64,000 nt of DNA from positions 124,001 through 188,000 of the forward strand of contig CANNFR010000002.1 in the NCBI GenBank assembly GCA_947503935.1, written 5' to 3'. Of the stretch, positions 9,199 through 38,736 are shown piece after piece. Within the stretch, counting starts at the first letter, position 1, and each line of letters begins with the position of its first letter. The notes under the pieces were generated by a model that had not been told where the DNA came from, searched no databases, and was given only the letters and a program-made list of their open reading frames with translations. Origin of the DNA: an uncultured Paracoccaceae bacterium (GTDB taxonomy: Bacteria; Pseudomonadota; Alphaproteobacteria; Rhodobacterales; Rhodobacteraceae). A program made the position numbers and the translations under genes.

Positions 9199-11731
9199 TC
9201 ACGATCCGCCCCGGCACCACGATCAGCTTTTTCGGCGCGCCACCATTCAGCGCGCGGATGACAGCCTGATCGGCCAGCACCAGTTTTTCAACCTCGGCCT
9301 TGTCCATATCCTTGGGCACGGTGATTTCCGCCCGCCTCTTGCCGTTGACCTGGATCGGCAGCGTCACGCTGTCGTCGACCAGCATCGCGGGGTCGGCCTT
9401 GGGCCAGGGTGCTGTGGCCACCAGCCCCTCGCCGCCCAGCATCGCCCAAACCTCCTCGGCCAGATGCGGCACCATAGGCGACATCAGCTGCGCCATGATG
9501 CGCATCGCCTGACGTTTGGTGTCAGAGCCCGCGCTGGATTTGGTCAGGATTTTGGTGAATTCATAGAGCTTGGCGACCGCCTTGTTAAACCCGAACCCTT
9601 CGATGCCCTGGGTCACCTCGTGGATCGTTTTGTGCATGGCGCGGGTCAGATCGGCATCCTGCGCATTGGCGTCTGTCGCGCCCTCTGCAATGTCCGAGGC
9701 CAGCCGGTAAACCCGCGCCAGATGATTGAACGCCGCCTCAGCACCAGAGGCCGTCCATTCCACATCCCGCTCGGGCGGGCTGTCGGACATGACAAACCAC
9801 CTCGCGGTATCGGCGCCGTAGCTGGCAATGATATCGTCGGGGTCGACCACGTTTTTCTTCTGCTTCGACATTTTGATGAGTGGGCCGATCTCAACCGGCG
9901 TTCCATCTTTCAGTCTTGCACCATCTTCATTATAAACGATCTCTTCGGGCAGATGCCAAACGTTGCGATTGTTTGCATCTTTCGTTGCATAGGTCTCGTG
10001 TATGACCATCCCTTGTGTGAAGAGTGCATTAAAAGGTTCGATAGACTTCTTAGGCAGGTGCCCGGTCAGTTGCATCGCCCGGGCGAAGAAACGCGAATAG
10101 AGCAGGTGCAGGATCGCATGCTCGATCCCGCCGATATACTGGTCGACATTCATCCAGTACTCGGCGTCTTCCATCACCGTCGGGGTATCCGCGCGCGGTG
10201 CGGTGAAGCGGGCGAAGTACCATGACGAATCGACGAACGTGTCCATCGTATCAGTCTCGCGTCGGGCGGGCTGGCCGCATTTGGGGCAATCGACGTCACG
10301 CCAGGTCGGGTGCCGGTCCAGCGGGTTGCCGGGTTTGTCGAAACTCACATCCTCGGGCAGGCGGACCGGCAGGTTTTCTTTCTTCTCGGGCACGATGCCA
10401 CATGCCTCGCAATGGACGACCGGAATCGGGCAGCCCCAATAGCGCTGGCGGCTGAGGCCCCAGTCGCGCAGGCGGTATTGGGTCTTGCCTTTGCCCAGCC
10501 CGTGCTTCTCGAAATAGTCGATGGTGGCGTCGATCCCTTCCAGGCTGGTCGCCTCAGTAATGCCCGCGAAATGGTCGATATACTGCACCACTTCGGTCTT
10601 GGGCGGCACCAAAGCCTCATCCCCCACCTCGACCAGATCGCCGGGCATATAAAAGGCATTTTGCACCGGCAGATCGTATTTGCGGGCGAAATCCAGATCG
10701 CGCTGGTCATGGGCCGGGCAGCCGAAAACGGCGCCGGTGCCATACTCCATCAGAACAAAATTGCCGATCCAGACGGGCAGGTCGCGGTCGGGATAGACCG
10801 GATGGGCGACGCGGATGCCCGTGTCGATGCCCTTCTTTTCGGCCTTTTCCATCGCCGCCTCGGTCGTGTCCATCCGGCGGCATTCTGCAATGAATTCAGC
10901 CAGATCGGGCCGTTCGGCCTCCAAGGCCTTCGACACGGGATGATCGGGCGCGATCGCGATAAAGCTGGCGCCACGCATCGTGTCGGGGCGGGTCGAATAG
11001 CACAGGATCGACTCGCCCCCATCCTTGCGCTGGAACGGAATGTCGATGCCGCGCGACTTGCCGATCCAGTTGGCCTGCATGGTGCGGACCTTTTCGGGCC
11101 AGTTTTCCAGCCCATCCAGCGCCTCAAGCAATTCCTCGGCGAAATCCGAGATACGGAAGAACCATTGCGTCAGCTCGCGCCGCTCAACCACCGCGCCCGA
11201 GCGCCAGCCCTTGCCGTCGATCACCTGCTCATTGGCCAGAACCGTCATGTCGACGGGGTCCCAGTTGACCACGGCGTTCTTGCGGTAAACCAGGCCTTTC
11301 TCCATGAAATCAATGAACAAGGCCTGCTGCTGGCCGTAGTACTCCGGATCGCAGGTGGCGAAACTGCGGCTCCAGTCATGGGTGTAGCCCAAAGGCTTCA
11401 ACTGGGCCTTCATGTCTTCGATGTTCTGATAAGTCCAGGTGCCGGGGTGAATGCCCTTCTCAATCGCCGCATTTTCGGCGGGCATCCCGAACGCGTCGAA
11501 CCCCATCGGATGCAACACATTGAACCCACATGACATTTTGTACCGCGCGACCACATCGCCCATCGTGTAATTGCGCGTGTGGCCGATATGGATGCGCCCC
11601 GACGGGTAGGGAAACATCTCAAGCACGTAATATTTCGGCCGCGCGGGGTCACGCTTGGCCTGAAAAATACCGGCCTCATCCCAGGCTTTCTGCCATTTCG
11701 GTTCGATCTGGGCGGGGTCGTGGCGCGACAT
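9185..11731 (-). CDS. leuS: Leucyl-tRNA synthetase
   Basis: 848 residues, full length. Class I signature HIGH at HIGHTRN (residue about 48) and KMSKQ near residue 620 are present, with the large CP1 editing domain between them and a CxxC zinc-ribbon region ([18 protein letters not shown]) near residue 480. It charges tRNA-Leu with leucine and edits norvaline/isoleucine. It precedes lptE with a 14-nt overlap and follows the DUF3576 lipoprotein gene by 74 bp, so all four genes likely share one promoter. Confidence 0.97.
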
Positions 11732-16831: not shown

Positions 16832-16866
16832 GGTAACGATTCTTGTGTTTGAAGGTGAAATCCCCT

Positions 16867-16892
16867 TTCCGCGTTGGGGTTATAACGCGGAA
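16867..16892. other. Perfect inverted repeat downstream of response regulator
   Basis: TTCCGCGTT (16867-16875), 8-nt loop GGGGTTAT, AACGCGGAA (16884-16892). A perfect 9-bp stem without T tract lies between the response-regulator stop and the terminator at 16908. It may protect the mRNA 3' end or be an RNase processing site; no function is shown. Confidence 0.6.
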
Positions 16893-16907
16893 CCTCCCTG
16901 TTGGACT

Positions 16908-16937
16908 GGCCCGGGCTTCGCGCTCGGGCCGTTTTTT
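16908..16937 (+). terminator. Rho-independent terminator of response regulator
   Basis: GGCCCGGGC (16908-16916), loop TTCGC, GCTCGGGCC (16922-16930) followed by G and six T. The stop codon of the convergent VWA gene (16936-16938 on the minus strand) is embedded in the T tract. Confidence 0.93.
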
Positions 16938-33460: not shown

Positions 33461-33919
33461 TCAATCCACCGCGTTATAGAGCGGCACGGTTGAGATCGAC
33501 ATCTTGGCCGAGCCTTGGGTCAATTCGCGGCCATGGACCAGGTAGATCAACGTCTGATGGTTTTCATCGAAGATACGCCGCACGCGGATCGATTTCAGGA
33601 TGATCGAACGGCCCTCGCGAAAAACCTCTTCGCCATCGGCACTCAACTCAATGTCACCGATGCTGATCGGACCGGTCTGGCGGCAGGCGATCGAGGCGTT
33701 CGAGGGGTCTTCGAACCAGTTTCCGTTGGACAGACGGTCGATCAGGCTGCGTTCGAAATACGAGATGTGGCAAGTGACGCCATCGACCTTGGGGTCTTCC
33801 AAGGCCTCGATGACGATGTCGTTGCCGACCCAATCGACACCGACTTTGCCGATCACCTCGGCATTGGCGGGGCTGGCAGCCAGAAGGGCCGCGGCGAAAG
33901 CGGATTTGAGAGTGCTCAT
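33461..33919 (-). CDS. creA: CreA family protein
   Basis: 152 residues from ATG 33919; the frame continues upstream without protein-like content. A signal peptide ([20 protein letters not shown]) precedes the CreA domain: [46 protein letters not shown] and [21 protein letters not shown]. CreA is widespread but has no defined function; in E. coli it lies beside the CreBC regulators, which are absent here. It is divergent from kbl (106-bp gap) and upstream of the MarR gene. Confidence 0.9.
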
Positions 33920-34025
33920 GCGCCTTGAACGCAGGCCGGGCCCTATTCGTTCCCGACCAGGCATGTCGCTTGTGGTGGACAGCGCCCGCCCGGCGTCGGA
34001 TATCTTGCGCGAAAGGGAGGTGCGG

Positions 34026-35216
34026 ATGCCCGATTTTCTGACCCATATCACCGACATTCTGGCCCAGATCGAGGCCGATGGCATGACCAAGCGCGAGCGT
34101 CTGATCACCTCGCCCCAAGGCGGGCATGTGACGATCGGCGGGCGCGATATCCTGAACCTCTCGGCCAACAACTACCTTGGCCTTGCCAATCATCCGGCGT
34201 TGCGCACGGCCGCGAAGACCGCGATTGACGATCACGGCTACGGCATGGCCTCGGTCCGGTTCATCTGCGGCACGCAGGACCTGCACCGCGCCCTGGAGCA
34301 GCGTCTGGCAACCTTCCTCGGCAAGGACGACACGATCCTCTTCGCCGCCTGTTTCGATGCCAATGGCGGTTTGTTCGAGCCGCTTTTGGGCCCCGAGGAT
34401 GCGGTGATTTCGGACGCGCTGAACCATGCCAGCATCATCGACGGTATTCGCCTGTGCAAGGCCAAGCGTTATCGCTATGCCAACTCGGATATGGACGCGC
34501 TTGAGGATCAGCTGAAGGCCGCACGGGCCGACAATGCGCGCCACATTATGATCGCCACCGATGGCGTCTTCTCGATGGACGGCTATCTGGCGAAATTGCC
34601 TGAAATCACCGCTCTGGCAGAACAATACGGCGCCATCGTGATGGTGGATGATTGCCATGCCACGGGCTTCATGGGGCCAGAGGGGCGCGGCACGCCGCAT
34701 CATGCCGGGGTGGCGGATGGCGTGCAGATCCTGACCGGCACGCTGGGCAAGGCGATGGGCGGCGCGCTCGGCGGTTACATCGCCGGGCCGCAACCGGTGA
34801 TCGACCTTCTGCGCCAGCGCGCGCGGCCCTACCTTTTCTCCAACGCGCTGCCACCGGCGATCTGCGCCGCCTCGCTGGCCGCGATTGATCTGGTGGAACA
34901 GGGCGATGACCTGCGCACGCAGCTTTTCGACAATGCCCGCTATTGGCGCGACGGCCTGTCAGCGCTCGGCTTCACCCTGCTTCCCGGCGAACACCCCATC
35001 ATTCCCGTCATGGTGGGCGAGGCCCCGCTGGCCCAGGATTTCGCCGCCAAGCTCTTCGACCACGGCGTCTATGCCCCGGGCTTCTTCTTCCCCGTCGTGC
35101 CCAAGGGACAGGCCCGCATCCGTACCCAGATGAACGCGGCGCTCAGCCGCACCGACCTCGACGCCGCGCTCGCCGCCTTCAAGGCTGCCGGCCGCACCAC
35201 GGGAGTTCTGGCATGA
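34026..35216 (+). CDS. kbl: Glycine C-acetyltransferase (2-amino-3-ketobutyrate CoA ligase)
   Basis: 396 residues from ATG 34026, preceded by GGGAGGTG; the frame is open upstream but antisense to creA. PLP enzyme of the alpha-oxoamine synthase family: [38 protein letters not shown] and the PLP lysine in [15 protein letters not shown]. It cleaves 2-amino-3-ketobutyrate with CoA into glycine and acetyl-CoA, the step after Tdh. The stop overlaps the methyltransferase start by 4 nt, giving an operon kbl-methyltransferase-tdh. Confidence 0.95.
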
Positions 35217-35842
35217 CTGCACGAGGAGGCTCCGCCGCTGCCATTCTGCGCTACAGTGAGAATGCAGCCACCCTGGCCGACCGCTACGAGGCGATTCCAA
35301 ACGAGGCCTATTACGCGCCGGTCAGGCATCTGATCCCGGTGCGGCCTTGCCGGATCGTCGATATCGGCACAGCCACCGGCCGCGACGCCCGCTGGTTTGC
35401 CGAGATGGGTCATTCGGTCACTGCGGTCGAGCCCGTCGCCGCGTTCCTCGATGCCGCCCGTAAGACAGACGACCGGGTCGTCTGGCTGGAAGATGCGCTG
35501 CCCGATCTGGCGAACCTGCGCGTGCGTGCCGAGGTCTATGATTACATCAACGTCGCGGCCGTCTGGCAGCATCTCGACCTTCAGGAGCGTCTCCGCGCGG
35601 CCGACACCCTGGCCCGGCTCGCGGCACTTGGCGGGCTTCTGGTCATGGCGCTGCGCCACGGGCCGACACCTCCAGGCATGCCGGTCTATCCGATAGACCC
35701 CGACGATACCGCCGATCTGTTCCGGCGGACGGGTTTCACCGAAGTGTTCCGTGCCAAGGCCCAATCGATCCAGGCGCCGAACCGGGCCGCTGGGGTCACA
35801 TGGACCTGGCTTGCCCTGCGCCGCGTAGGAGCGGAAAAATGA
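35213..35842 (+). CDS. Class I SAM-dependent methyltransferase
   Basis: 209 residues from ATG 35213. The SAM-binding motif I is [20 protein letters not shown] (about residues 46-65), followed by an acidic residue after strand 2 ([15 protein letters not shown]). The C-terminal half is short and ends in WTWLALRRV. The substrate is unknown. It lies between kbl and tdh with 4-nt ATGA overlaps on both sides, so it is translated with the threonine-degradation enzymes even though no methylation step is known in that pathway. Confidence 0.82.
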
Positions 35843-36879
35843 CCAATGAGATGAAAGTGCTGGCCAAGTCCCGCCCCGAACCGGGCCTCTGGATGGAAAC
35901 GCGGCCGGTGCCCCAGATCGGGCCGGATGATGTGCTGATCCGCATCCGCAAGACCGGGATCTGCGGGACCGACGTGCATATCTGGAACTGGGACGACTGG
36001 GCCCAGCGCACAGTGCCCGTGCCCCTCGTGACGGGCCATGAATTCGCGGGCGAGATCGTGGAGCTGGGGCGGGATGTCGAGGGGCTGGTGCTGGGCCAGC
36101 GCTGCTCGGGCGAGGGGCATCTGATCGGCAAGACCTCGCGCCAGAGCCGGGCGGGCAAGTTCCACCTTGATCCCGCGACGCGCGGCATCGGTGTCAACGA
36201 ACCGGGCGCATTTGCCGAGTACCTCCGCTTACCCGCGTTCAACGTAGTGCCCCTGCCGGACGAGGTGGATGATGAGATCGGGGCGATCCTCGATCCGCTT
36301 GGCAACGCGGTCCACACCGCTTTGTCGTTCGATCTGGTGGGTGAGGACGTGCTGGTCACCGGGGCCGGCCCCATCGGTATCATGGCCGCCGCCGTGGCGC
36401 GGCATGTCGGCGCCCGGAACGTGGTGATCACCGATATCAACGCCGACAGGCTGGCCCTGGCGGCAAAGGTGGCCGACGTGGTGCCGGTGAACGTGGCGGA
36501 AGAAGATCTGCGCGCCGTGATCTCGCGCCTGAAGATGAAAGAGGGCTTCGATGTCGGGCTTGAGATGTCGGGCAACCAGCGCGCGCTGGACCAGATGGTC
36601 GAGGCGCTGGTGATGGGCGGGCGGATCGCCCTTCTGGGCATTCCGCCCGGCAAAAGCCCCGTCGACTGGAGCCGCATCGTCTTCAAGGCAATCACCCTCA
36701 AAGGCGTCTACGGGCGCGAGATCTTCGAGACCTGGTACAAGATGATCGCCATGCTGCAAAACGGGCTGAACGTGCGCGACGTCATCACCCACCGCCTACC
36801 CGTGGACCGGTTCGAAGAGGGCTTCGCGGCCATGCGCGGCGGGTCCAGCGGGAAGGTGGTTCTTGACTGGACGTCTTGA
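35839..36879 (+). CDS. tdh: L-threonine 3-dehydrogenase, structural-zinc cysteines replaced
   Basis: 346 residues from ATG 35839. Zinc-dependent alcohol dehydrogenase family with catalytic Cys42 in [10 protein letters not shown], His67-Glu68 in GHEFAG and the Rossmann motif [12 protein letters not shown]. It oxidises threonine to 2-amino-3-ketobutyrate for Kbl. In E. coli Tdh a structural zinc is held by four cysteines in the lobe after GEGH; the aligned positions here are Gly97, Ser100, Ser103 and Asp111, so this zinc site is absent. Product assignment is supported by the kbl neighbour and by AFNVVPLPD and [20 protein letters not shown]. Confidence 0.92.
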
Positions 36880-36901
36880 CGGGTGCGCCAGAGTTCGATA
36901 A

Positions 36902-36937
36902 TTGCGCCACCAGAGAACGGAGTATGACCTATGTCAT
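36902..36937 (+). promoter_or_regulatory. Possible promoter/operator of tRNA-Ser array
   Basis: TTGCGC (36902-36907) and TATGAC (36923-36928) resemble -35 and -10 elements but with a short 15-bp spacer. The -10 overlaps a perfect inverted repeat ATGAC-CTAT-GTCAT (36924-36937). A 7-bp direct repeat TGCGCCA occurs at 36884 and 36903. This is the only plausible promoter between tdh and the first tRNA; read-through from tdh is the alternative. Confidence 0.35.
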
Positions 36938-36961
36938 CAAGTAGTAGCACATCATCACCCC

Positions 36962-37051
36962 GGAGGGTGAAGCGGTAAGGCACCGCAGGCGACTGCTAAT
37001 CGTTCTGTTCCCCTAAGAAGGAATGTGGATCGAGACCACCGCCCTCCGCCA
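36962..37051 (+). tRNA. tRNA-Ser(GCT), 8/4 acceptor/T architecture
   Basis: 90 nt including encoded CCA (37049-37051); discriminator G37048. Acceptor strand GGAGGGTG (36962-36969) pairs over 8 bp with 37040-37047, the eighth pair being G36969-C37040. The linker is AA, then D stem GCGG/CCGC with loop TAAGGCA. Anticodon loop CTGCTAA (36993-36999), anticodon GCT, closed by a stem with two G-T pairs. The long variable arm GTTCC/GGAAT is class II. T stem GTGG/CCAC is only 4 bp, loop ATCGAGA. Serine identity follows from the anticodon, G73 and long variable arm. It reads AGC/AGT codons. Confidence 0.9.
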
Positions 37052-37052
37052 A

Positions 37053-37139
37053 GGATGGGTAATCCGAGCGGCCTCGGACTCTGTCTTGAAAACAGATGGA
37101 CGCGCACGCGTTGGGGATCGACACCTCACCCACCCGCCA
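37053..37139 (+). tRNA. tRNA-Ser(TGA), 8/4 acceptor/T architecture
   Basis: 87 nt with encoded CCA, starting 1 nt after the previous CCA. Acceptor GGATGGGT (37053-37060) pairs with 37128-37135; the eighth pair is T37060-A37128, and the third is an A-C mismatch. Linker AA, D stem TCCG/CGGA with loop AGCGGCCT. Anticodon stem TCTGT/ACAGA is perfect around CTTGAAA (anticodon TGA, 37087-37089). Variable arm ACGC/GCGT. T stem GGGG/CCTC of 4 bp (one G-T), loop ATCGACA. It reads TCA and, by wobble, other TCN codons. Confidence 0.9.
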
Positions 37140-37141
37140 AA

Positions 37142-37227
37142 GGTAAGTCAACCGAACAGGGTTCGGCACCCGTTGGAAACGGGTTGGCGCGGCAACGTGT
37201 GGGGATCGAGACCTCGGCTTACCGCCA
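37142..37227 (+). tRNA. tRNA-Ser(GGA), 8/4 acceptor/T architecture
   Basis: 86 nt with encoded CCA, 2 nt after the preceding gene. Acceptor GGTAAGTC (37142-37149) pairs with 37216-37223; the eighth pair is C37149-G37216. Linker AA, D stem CCGA/TCGG with loop ACAGGGT. Perfect anticodon stem ACCCG/CGGGT around TTGGAAA (anticodon GGA, 37175-37177). Variable arm GCGCG/CGTGT closed by a GCAA tetraloop. T stem GGGG/CCTC, loop ATCGAGA. It reads TCC/TCT. Confidence 0.9.
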
Positions 37228-37228
37228 C

Positions 37229-37315
37229 GGAAGGCAAACGCAGGCGGTCCTGCGTCCTGTTTCGAAAACAGTGAGTTCCGCAAGGAATGGGGTTCGACAC
37301 CTCTGCCTTCCGCCA
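37229..37315 (+). tRNA. tRNA-Ser(CGA), 8/4 acceptor/T architecture
   Basis: 87 nt with encoded CCA, 1 nt after the preceding gene. Acceptor GGAAGGCA (37229-37236) pairs with 37304-37311, all Watson-Crick, the eighth pair being A37236-T37304. Linker AA, D stem CGCA/TGCG with loop GGCGGTCC. Anticodon loop TTCGAAA (anticodon CGA, 37263-37265); the outer anticodon-stem pair is a C-T mismatch. Variable arm GTTCC/GGAAT with a GCAA tetraloop. T stem GGGG/CCTC, loop TTCGACA, the only member with T54. It reads TCG. The hmgA -35 begins 7 nt after the CCA. Confidence 0.9.
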
Positions 37316-37321
37316 TCCACC

Positions 37322-37351
37322 TTGACGTCGTTGCATTTGCAACGATATCCT
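37322..37351 (+). promoter_or_regulatory. hmgA promoter with MarR operator in the spacer
   Basis: TTGACG (37322-37327) and TATCCT (37346-37351) are separated by 18 bp. The spacer contains the 16-bp perfect palindrome CGTTGCA-TT-TGCAACG (37329-37344), which shares the core GTTGCA-NN-TGCAAC with the site upstream of the MarR gene. A dimer bound here would block RNA polymerase, so repression is the expected effect. hmgA starts 23 bp downstream of the -10 with the ribosome site AGGAGG. Confidence 0.8.
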
Positions 37352-37374
37352 CTTGCAGCGACAGGAGGCCTCCG

Positions 37375-38736
37375 ATGAACACCCACACCCTGCCCAAAGG
37401 CATGACCCGCGCCGCATCTGAACCGGGCCCGCATGAGGGGTACATGCCCGGCTTCGGCAATGACTTTGAGACCGAGGCGCTGCCGGATGCGCTGCCGCAG
37501 GGACAGAACTCACCGCAGAAGTGCAATTACGGGCTTTATGGCGAACAGCTGAGCGGCACGGCCTTCACCGCGCCCAGCCATCAGAATGAGCGGACGTGGT
37601 GCTATCGCATCCGGCCCTCGGTCAAGCACAGCCACCGCTATACCAAGATCGACCTGCCCTATTGGAAGACCGCCCCGCATGTCGACCCCGACGTGATCTC
37701 ACTAGGCCAATACCGCTGGGATCCGGTCCCGCATTCCGACCAGCCGCTGACCTGGCTGACCGGCATGCGCACAATGACCACCGCAGGCGACGTGAACACG
37801 CAAGTCGGCATGGCCAGCCACATCTATCTGGTCACCGCCAGCATGGAAGACGCCTATTTCTACTCGGCCGATTCCGAGCTTCTGGTGGTTCCGCAGGAAG
37901 GCCGCCTGCGTTTCTGCACCGAACTTGGCGTGATCGACCTCGCCCCGCAGGAGATCGCTGTTCTGCCGCGCGGGTTGGTGTACCGGGTCGAGGTACTTGA
38001 GGGTCCCGCACGGGGCTTTGTCTGCGAGAATTACGGGCAGAAATTCCAGCTGCCCGGCCGCGGCCCGATCGGCGCCAATTGCATGGCCAACCGGCGTGAT
38101 TTCAAGACACCCGTCGCCGCCTTTGAGGACCGCGAGGTGCCCTCCACTCTCACCATCAAGTGGTGCGGCCAATTCCATGAGACGAAGATCGGCCACAGCC
38201 CCTTGGATGTCGTGGCTTGGCACGGCAATTACGCGCCTTGCAAATACGACCTGAAGACCTACTGCCCCGTCGGCGCGATCCTCTTCGATCATCCCGATCC
38301 GTCGATCTTCACCGTGCTGACCGCGCCAAGTGGCGTCGAGGGCACCGCCAATATCGATTTCGTGCTGTTCCGCGAACGCTGGATGGTGGCCGAGCACACC
38401 TTCCGCCCGCCATGGTACCACAAGAACATCATGTCGGAACTCATGGGCAACATCTACGGCCAGTATGACGCCAAGCCCAAAGGCTTCGTCCCCGGCGGCA
38501 TGAGCTTGCACAACATGATGCTGCCCCACGGCCCTGACCGGAATGCGTTCGAGGGCGCGTCCAACGCCAATCTCGGCCCGGACAAGCTCGACAACACCAT
38601 GTCCTTCATGTTCGAGACGCGGTTCCCGCAGCATCTGACCGCCTTTGCCGCAAATGAAGCGCCCTTGCAGGATGATTACATCGATTGCTGGGCCGATCTT
38701 GAAAAGAAATTCGACGGCACGCCGGGCGTGAAGTGA
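37375..38736 (+). CDS. hmgA: Homogentisate 1,2-dioxygenase
   Basis: 453 residues, full length. Family blocks include [20 protein letters not shown] written in part as [30 protein letters not shown] in part as [10 protein letters not shown], and the iron-site region [16 protein letters not shown] with the His and Glu ligands. It opens the homogentisate ring to maleylacetoacetate with O2. First gene of hmgA-MBL-fahA; the stop overlaps the GTG of the next gene by 4 nt. Expression is probably controlled by the MarR site at 37329. Confidence 0.97.

Follow-up and report, generated by a model that had tools for sequence, protein, structure and literature searches.

A tandem array of four 8/4 serine tRNA genes in a Paracoccaceae genome, with a serine-rich leader ORF and a putative leader:tRNA trap

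Class II serine tRNAs of the 8/4 type were reportedly described in bacteria and phages by Mukai et al. in 2017 (Nucleic Acids Res. 45:2776, as cited in PMC7609411). We know of no bacterial tRNA operon that stands under a leader ORF reading the tRNAs' own codons, and listings of open-licence papers showed neither a serine leader nor a cis codon-anticodon trap for a tRNA operon, which is weak evidence of absence. The original prediction for this DNA had pointed to the same work, in agreement with two reviews (PMC7609411, PMC11231383). According to these, allo-tRNAs are characterized by a long D stem (6 bp), a small D loop, and mostly non-serine anticodons (PMC11231383, PMC7609411). Phage tRNAs evading tRNA-targeting defences have been reported (PMC10264068, PMC11555353), and in sinR of Bacillus subtilis, pausing at serine TCN codons has a signalling role (PMC3862929, PMC11925247).

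Here, we analysed a stretch of 64,000 nucleotides from an uncultured Paracoccaceae bacterium (hereafter the window), which contains a tandem array of 8/4 serine tRNA genes. The 8/4 serine tRNA type is already known; the new part of the locus is the leader upstream. The original prediction was right about the array and overlooked the leader before it, which we consider the more important feature. On balance, and going by sequence comparison and predicted folds, we are inclined to read leader and array together as a back-up cassette of serine tRNAs that has spread horizontally and carries its own sensor of serine decoding.

The array of 8/4 serine tRNA genes and its relatives

The array consists of the following genes:

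36962-37051 (+), 8/4 tRNA-Ser(GCU), gene 1, 90 nt
37053-37139 (+), 8/4 tRNA-Ser(UGA), gene 2, 87 nt, with an A3-C70 mismatch
37142-37227 (+), 8/4 tRNA-Ser(GGA), gene 3, 86 nt
37229-37315 (+), 8/4 tRNA-Ser(CGA), gene 4, 87 nt

Four tandem tRNA-Ser genes of this type had been predicted at 36962-37315, and our analysis confirmed them, with acceptor stems of 8 bp and T stems of 4 bp. The pairs claimed for position 8 (G-C, T-A, C-G, and A-T in genes 1 to 4) are present in the sequence, as are the combinations that a 7/5 fold would place as fifth pair of the T stem (T-C, T-A, T-G, and T-T). All four genes also share the AA linker, the 4-bp D stem, the D loop of 7-8 nt with GG, the class II variable arm, G73, and the encoded CCA attributed to them, and their T loops read ATCGAGA, ATCGACA, ATCGAGA, and TTCGACA, respectively. 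A single G-U pair occurs in the acceptor stems of genes 1 and 3, that of gene 4 is perfect, and the mismatch A3-C70 in gene 2 had gone unmentioned. The canonical combination of a 7-bp acceptor stem, a 5-bp T stem, and an unpaired U8 is not found in the array genes. A purpose-built scanner gave 8/4 scores of 22.9, 21.9, 23.2, and 21.9 for genes 1 to 4, while under 7/5 genes 1 and 2 fell below the threshold and genes 3 and 4 scored 19.2 and 17.6.

Across eight homologues, two of them taken from the window array itself, 8/4 pairing was found in 98.1% of cells, compared to 76.8% after shuffling. Sliding the partners lowered the figure to 51.4% or less, and three Watson-Crick types are seen at pair 8. 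Position-8 pairing, whose loss in homologues had been named as an argument against the 8/4 fold, is kept via compensatory changes, so this comparison did not refute the 8/4 interpretation of the array, which is supported at the sequence level.

ARAGORN detected gene 1 alone of the four, a gathering search of the window with Rfam listed none of them, and none is among the 42 tRNAs matched by RF00005 across the whole genome. Since ARAGORN finds one of the four and the Rfam tRNA model none, 8/4 serine tRNA genes are probably under-annotated. As side observations, tRNA-Tyr is absent among the 42 RF00005 matches as classified by ARAGORN and may have been missed or lie in an assembly gap; a weak tRNA-Asn-like gene with an irregular fold was seen in the same genome (L042:117-189 (-), equal to G000:C8:124819-124888, 30.5 bits); and the window encodes the small RNA SorX (RF02784) at 16862-16935 (+) with 72.1 bits.

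BLAST with the array led to nine phage records, and 8/4 serine genes were identified in five of the six records scanned, namely three each in Ruegeria phage V10 and Phaeobacter phage MD18, four in Xanthomonas phage X1 (all four anticodons), and one each in Pseudomonas phage Milchi and a 735-kb uncultured phage, the record of which is unannotated; in Synechococcus phage S-CBWM1 (L048), the scanner gave none. In the four annotated records, none of the listed tRNAs covers the 8/4 genes. Scanning viral contigs for a T-arm motif revealed 52 stretches, 51 of them with scanner hits, and 85 hits in total, three of which have non-serine anticodons and some of which are probably false. Their anticodons are UGA (29), GGA (23), CGA (18), GCU (12), and others (3), and their position-8 pairs GC (30), TA (27), AT (18), and CG (8), with two unpaired. 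With a second motif, 57 stretches were found in viral contigs, 15 of them with scanner hits. Seven further phage loci were scanned: 8/4 serine genes came up in L272, L276, and L277, and none in L271, L273, L274, and L275, despite BLAST similarity of the latter to 8/4 genes. Overall, 8/4 serine tRNAs are frequent in phage tRNA arrays. A close viral source for the bacterial GCU gene was not found by the first pattern, and a wider one led to L266 only; the pattern for the UGA gene gave no close viral source, and the search for plasmid relatives no match. As a separate observation, the CGA and GCU 8/4 serine genes of viral contig L270 are followed by a tRNA of the 8/4 type (10125-10207 (-)) whose anticodon, GTA, is that of tyrosine.

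In bacteria, the cassette is rare and patchy. The covariance-model search that had been proposed was performed with a custom 8/4 model built from eight genes and set apart 3 of 394 genomes of the family, a lower bound since 11 candidates per genome were scored under strict filters. In the three carriers, the best match reached at least 74 bits, compared to 53.3 bits in the next genome, and the scanner, applied to loci L051-L080, set the three apart as well. A class-wide search of 385 genomes returned the window's own genome only, at a limit of 1e-8 that weak arrays could escape. In the genera of four carriers, 1/6, 1/2, 1/54, and 1/25 genomes were positive, in each case the carrier itself.

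Arrays of four genes are present in the window, an uncultured Ruegeria (G774), and genome G783. Two genes were found in G357 and Pseudohalocynthiibacter (GCU and UGA) as well as in G004 (GCU and CGA), the array of Shimia consists of GCU alone, and in that of Sulfitobacter algicola, GCU and CGA flank a UGA/GGA fusion gene. This fusion (L150:593-679 (-)), as read from the sequence, has two mismatched acceptor strands and reflects either a deletion between adjacent genes or an assembly fault. The arrays have thus decayed in places, as seen in the mismatch in gene 2 of the window, the S. algicola fusion, and the lone GCU gene of Shimia. At L133, the scanner misread the GGA anticodon and missed the UGA gene, which ARAGORN found; both were read by eye.

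The leader ORF and its predicted pairing with the first tRNA

The region upstream of gene 1 and overlapping it contains the following features:

36919-36922 (+), Shine-Dalgarno-like GGAG, 8 nt 5' of the leader ATG, as read from the sequence
36931-36978 (+), leader mini-ORF, MSSSSSTSSPRRVKR, with its stop codon within the D arm of tRNA gene 1
36940-36948 (+), trap strand 1 in the predicted fold of the leader with the 5' half of tRNA 1
36955-36960 (+), trap strand 2, facing the 5' acceptor strand of tRNA 1 (36965-36970) in the predicted fold

The leader of the window reads ATG TCA TCA AGT AGT AGC ACA TCA TCA CCC CGG AGG GTG AAG CGG TAA, so that 7 of the 14 codons after ATG are serine codons (four TCA, two AGT, and one AGC). 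Mini-ORFs at the equivalent place were identified in 11 loci, comprising nine bacterial loci, all with GCU as the first gene, and two viral contigs. The remaining bacterial ones are those of S. algicola (MSSSSCSSSPRRVKR), G783 (MSSSSSTSSPWRVKR), Shimia (MESSSRTSSLL), G004 (MFRSSRSHLG), MAG contig OFTM82 (MRSSSSSSITGE), Ruegeria (MFTKRSYSL), Pseudohalocynthiibacter (MNMQRSSSL), and G357 (MNTKRSQSSSR), and the viral ones those of L266 (MNSNLSSSSSL) and L270 (MFASRTLSSSSIALRY), the latter having been picked out of 15 viral loci for its Ser-rich upstream ORF. A motif scan of genome contigs resulted in 41 loci, 12 with 8/4 hits by the scanner and 29 without; a GCU-first leader is present in 6 of the 12, and no Ser-rich ORF was found before the scanned genes of the other six. 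As a further observation, 8/4 serine genes adjoin tRNA-Tyr in a deltaproteobacterial MAG (L173:7630-8000 (-)) and a Parvularculaceae MAG (L134:1800-2260 (-)), where the scanned genes have no serine leader.

All 11 leaders contain both UCN and AGY codons, and serine accounts for 55 of their 123 codons. Of these, 24 are UCA and 17 (after correction of L270) AGU, although the two codons make up 10.5% and 4.2%, respectively, of the Ser codons in 38 long ORFs of the window, chosen by length and not by annotation. The ATG frame, which is kept and often preceded by GGAG or similar, holds most of the Ser-type triplets in 10 of the 11. In this respect, the leaders resemble those of ribosome-mediated attenuation, where codons for the amino acid being sensed are clustered in a short ORF.

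A criterion requiring an ATG ORF 6-25 codons long and close to where the tRNA begins, with at least 25% Ser and both codon boxes, was passed by 11/11 leader loci versus 2/168 control tRNA genes, though it was drawn up post hoc with the cases already seen. By control set, 2 of 41 tRNAs of the same genome, 0 of 26 other tRNAs of the family loci, and 0 of 101 phage 8/4 genes passed, as did 111 of 5000 random window positions. Compared to dinucleotide shuffles, the Ser count was unusual in eight loci (at most 26/2000) and not unusual in L133 (309/2000), L162 (513/2000), and L190 (123/2000). Of the control tRNAs in this test, 19 of 45 had some mini-ORF, with at most 5 Ser (of 21) by count and at most 0.33 by fraction.

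Folding 45 nt of leader together with the first 45 nt of tRNA 1 predicted a single topology in 10/10 GCU-first loci, in which the leader pairs with the anticodon arm, its 3' end pairs with the 5' acceptor strand, and the D arm is kept. In the window, 36940-36945 is predicted to pair with 36992-36997 and 36947-36948 with 36989-36990 in the anticodon arm, which places the in-frame AGT at 36940-36942 opposite the GCU anticodon. Against shuffled leaders, z was at most -1.28 in 10/10 GCU-first loci and at most -2 in seven of them (window -1.73, L133 -2.77, L150 -4.49, L167 -2.20, L139 -3.68, L149 -3.25, L162 -1.28, L190 -4.55, L198 -1.87, and L266 -4.14), but the loci are not independent, because the window, L150, and L167 are near copies. 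In the CGA-first locus L270, the trap was not seen (z +1.39). Among the controls, z reached -1.28 or less in 0/41 tRNAs of the same genome, and 2/79 phage 8/4 genes, neither of which is among the 12 phage GCU genes. The anticodon is predicted to be fully paired in 8 of the 10 GCU-first loci, seven times facing an in-frame AGC or AGU; the presence of AGY codons and the anticodon pairing are partly one fact. At eight paired positions, two Watson-Crick types occur in which both partners have changed, with the pairs taken from separate predicted folds and not from one alignment. When leaders were exchanged among the loci, the foreign leader often paired no less well than the native one.

A hairpin with the acceptor strand as the sole lock was dropped, as this pairing by itself was not significant in most loci; in its place, we examined the full three-way pairing that involves the 5' half. 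With the complete tRNA 1, the interaction is significant in 3/11 loci only; the best fold of the whole tRNA shows the trap in 8/11 and keeps the cloverleaf in L167, L162, and L270. The predicted exclusivity of the two folds is clear with the 5' half and weak with the whole tRNA. By folding rules, trap and cloverleaf are close in energy, which could suit a co-transcriptional switch or mean that the cloverleaf usually wins.

The array could also be an unregulated, phage-derived extra set that boosts or tops up serine decoding, with leader and pairing being incidental. In phages, 8/4 serine tRNAs are common in tRNA arrays that are leaderless by our criterion, and the loss or damage of genes in some bacterial arrays suggests weak constraint. 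Still, we judge this unlikely, since Ser-rich leaders precede 11/11 of these loci as opposed to the few passing controls, and the GCU-first loci have a common leader:tRNA topology. Quite improbable, in our view, is that the leader acts untranslated as a structural antisense trap in which the Ser triplets are forced by the match to the GCU anticodon arm. AGC and AGU are indeed the triplets that pair there; however, the UCN codons found in every leader are unneeded for pairing, the ATG frame with its frequent upstream GGAG-like motif is retained, and L270 has a Ser-rich ORF and no trap.

Genomic context and the proposed switch

The array lies between metabolic genes, with a short direct repeat at its borders:

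33600-35216, aminotransferase, upstream of the array
35800-36879, zinc dehydrogenase, upstream of the array
36875-36881, direct repeat CTTGACG (7 bp), left copy, bracketing leader and array
37321-37327, direct repeat CTTGACG, right copy
37375-38736, homogentisate dioxygenase, downstream of the array

A methyltransferase lies upstream as well; the aminotransferase is probably kbl and the zinc dehydrogenase probably tdh. In genome G011, matches to the dehydrogenase and the homogentisate dioxygenase lie 122 bp apart and the array is absent. Judged by its sequence, the repeat is possibly a target-site duplication and may be due to chance. Two other arrays have prophage-like neighbours. In G357, these comprise an endolysin, a tape-measure-like protein, and a DNA invertase; in Ruegeria, they comprise an exonuclease, a tail collar fibre, an Ant anti-repressor, and a head protein. 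For the protein adjoining the array of L149, PHROG gave no match, so that its phage origin is only putative, and no neighbour gene common to the arrays was noticed, as the neighbours differ. In regard to expression signals, scanning for promoters revealed no sigma-70-like site upstream of the leader, and no intrinsic terminator was found in the leader; the one terminator-like site in 36800-37420 lies inside gene 2 and is at chance level.

The prophage-like genes adjoining two arrays would fit tRNA-dependent lysogeny, in which, as far as the available part of PMC10865867 goes, prophage tRNAs replace a host tRNA gene broken by integration. We regard this as very improbable for the window, whose genome keeps all four canonical serine tRNAs, whose array lies between two metabolic genes and not at a tRNA gene, and whose cassette type carries up to four isoacceptors. 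A check for canonical 7/5 tRNA-Ser elsewhere in the genome, as had been suggested, located UGA, GCU, GGA, and CGA on other contigs. Since this 7/5 set is complete, the array is a second serine set, and its role as a replacement was rejected. A dedicated synthetase for the 8/4 tRNAs was rejected as well, because the genome encodes a single SerRS above the family cut-off (second match 31.5 bits versus a cut-off of 301.65). An orthogonal set with its own synthetase, or one placing serine at non-serine codons, is extremely improbable: 8/4 allo-tRNAs with odd anticodons do exist (PMC7609411, in the part available), but there is only this one SerRS, and all four array genes and 82/85 viral hits have serine anticodons.

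For the back-up cassette with a sensor, we propose the following course. On the emerging transcript, a naked leader would capture the 5' half of tRNA 1 before the 3' half exists, and cloverleaf formation and 5' processing of tRNA 1 would be hindered. If serine codons became slow, with canonical tRNA-Ser being cut, blocked, uncharged, or outnumbered, a ribosome waiting at the Ser codons of the leader would cover the trap strands, so that tRNA 1 could fold and the array mature, whereas under rapid translation the leader would stay available for pairing. Both codon boxes are present in every leader, chiefly as UCA and AGU/AGC, so that it is the UGA and GCU isoacceptors that the leaders would monitor, and the sensor would fire on a shortage of these, e.g., after a tRNA-cleaving or tRNA-blocking attack. 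Charging of the 8/4 tRNAs would fall to the one SerRS of the host, and their body may evade factors recognising 7/5 tRNA-Ser. Genes 2-4 might be controlled by processing order or Rho. The polarity of the switch, the way in which genes 2-4 would be controlled, and any benefit of having an 8/4 fold are our inference.

As a tentative and rather doubtful extension, the cassette might be a mobile immunity-like device that senses loss of working serine tRNAs via leader pausing and releases a structurally disguised full set, with the sensing codon doubling as the lock by pairing in cis to the anticodon of the very tRNA under its control. If the proposed switch is true, a cell or prophage could follow how well one amino acid is being decoded and supply differently shaped tRNAs. 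It would then be directly testable why 8/4 serine tRNAs are so frequent in phages and whether they escape factors that target tRNAs.

Comparison with known systems

Like the 8/4 serine tRNAs of Mukai et al., the array has the 8-bp acceptor stem, the 4-bp T stem, the class II form, and serine anticodons. Unlike them, it supplies all four isoacceptors in a genome whose canonical set is complete as well, and it follows a serine leader ORF and a putative trap. From allo-tRNAs it differs in its D stem of 4 bp, its D loop of 7-8 nt, and its four serine anticodons.

With the leaders of ribosome-mediated attenuation, as presented in the accessible part of PMC1183508, the locus shares a short ORF and putatively also regulatory codons of one amino acid and alternative folds. 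Unlike in amino-acid operons described there, the leader precedes tRNA genes and not enzyme genes, the tRNA itself is predicted to be sequestered, and no terminator was found here. As with the defence-countering phage tRNAs in the available sections of PMC10264068 and PMC11555353, mobile extra copies could replace inactivated host tRNAs; those tRNAs have changes in the anticodon loop, whereas here the overall fold differs, a putative sensor is present, and the location is chromosomal. Finally, pausing at serine codons, proposed as the signal for the leader, links it to sinR as described in the parts of PMC3862929 and PMC11925247 at hand, with the difference that the sinR codons lie inside a protein gene and those of the window in a leader before tRNA genes.
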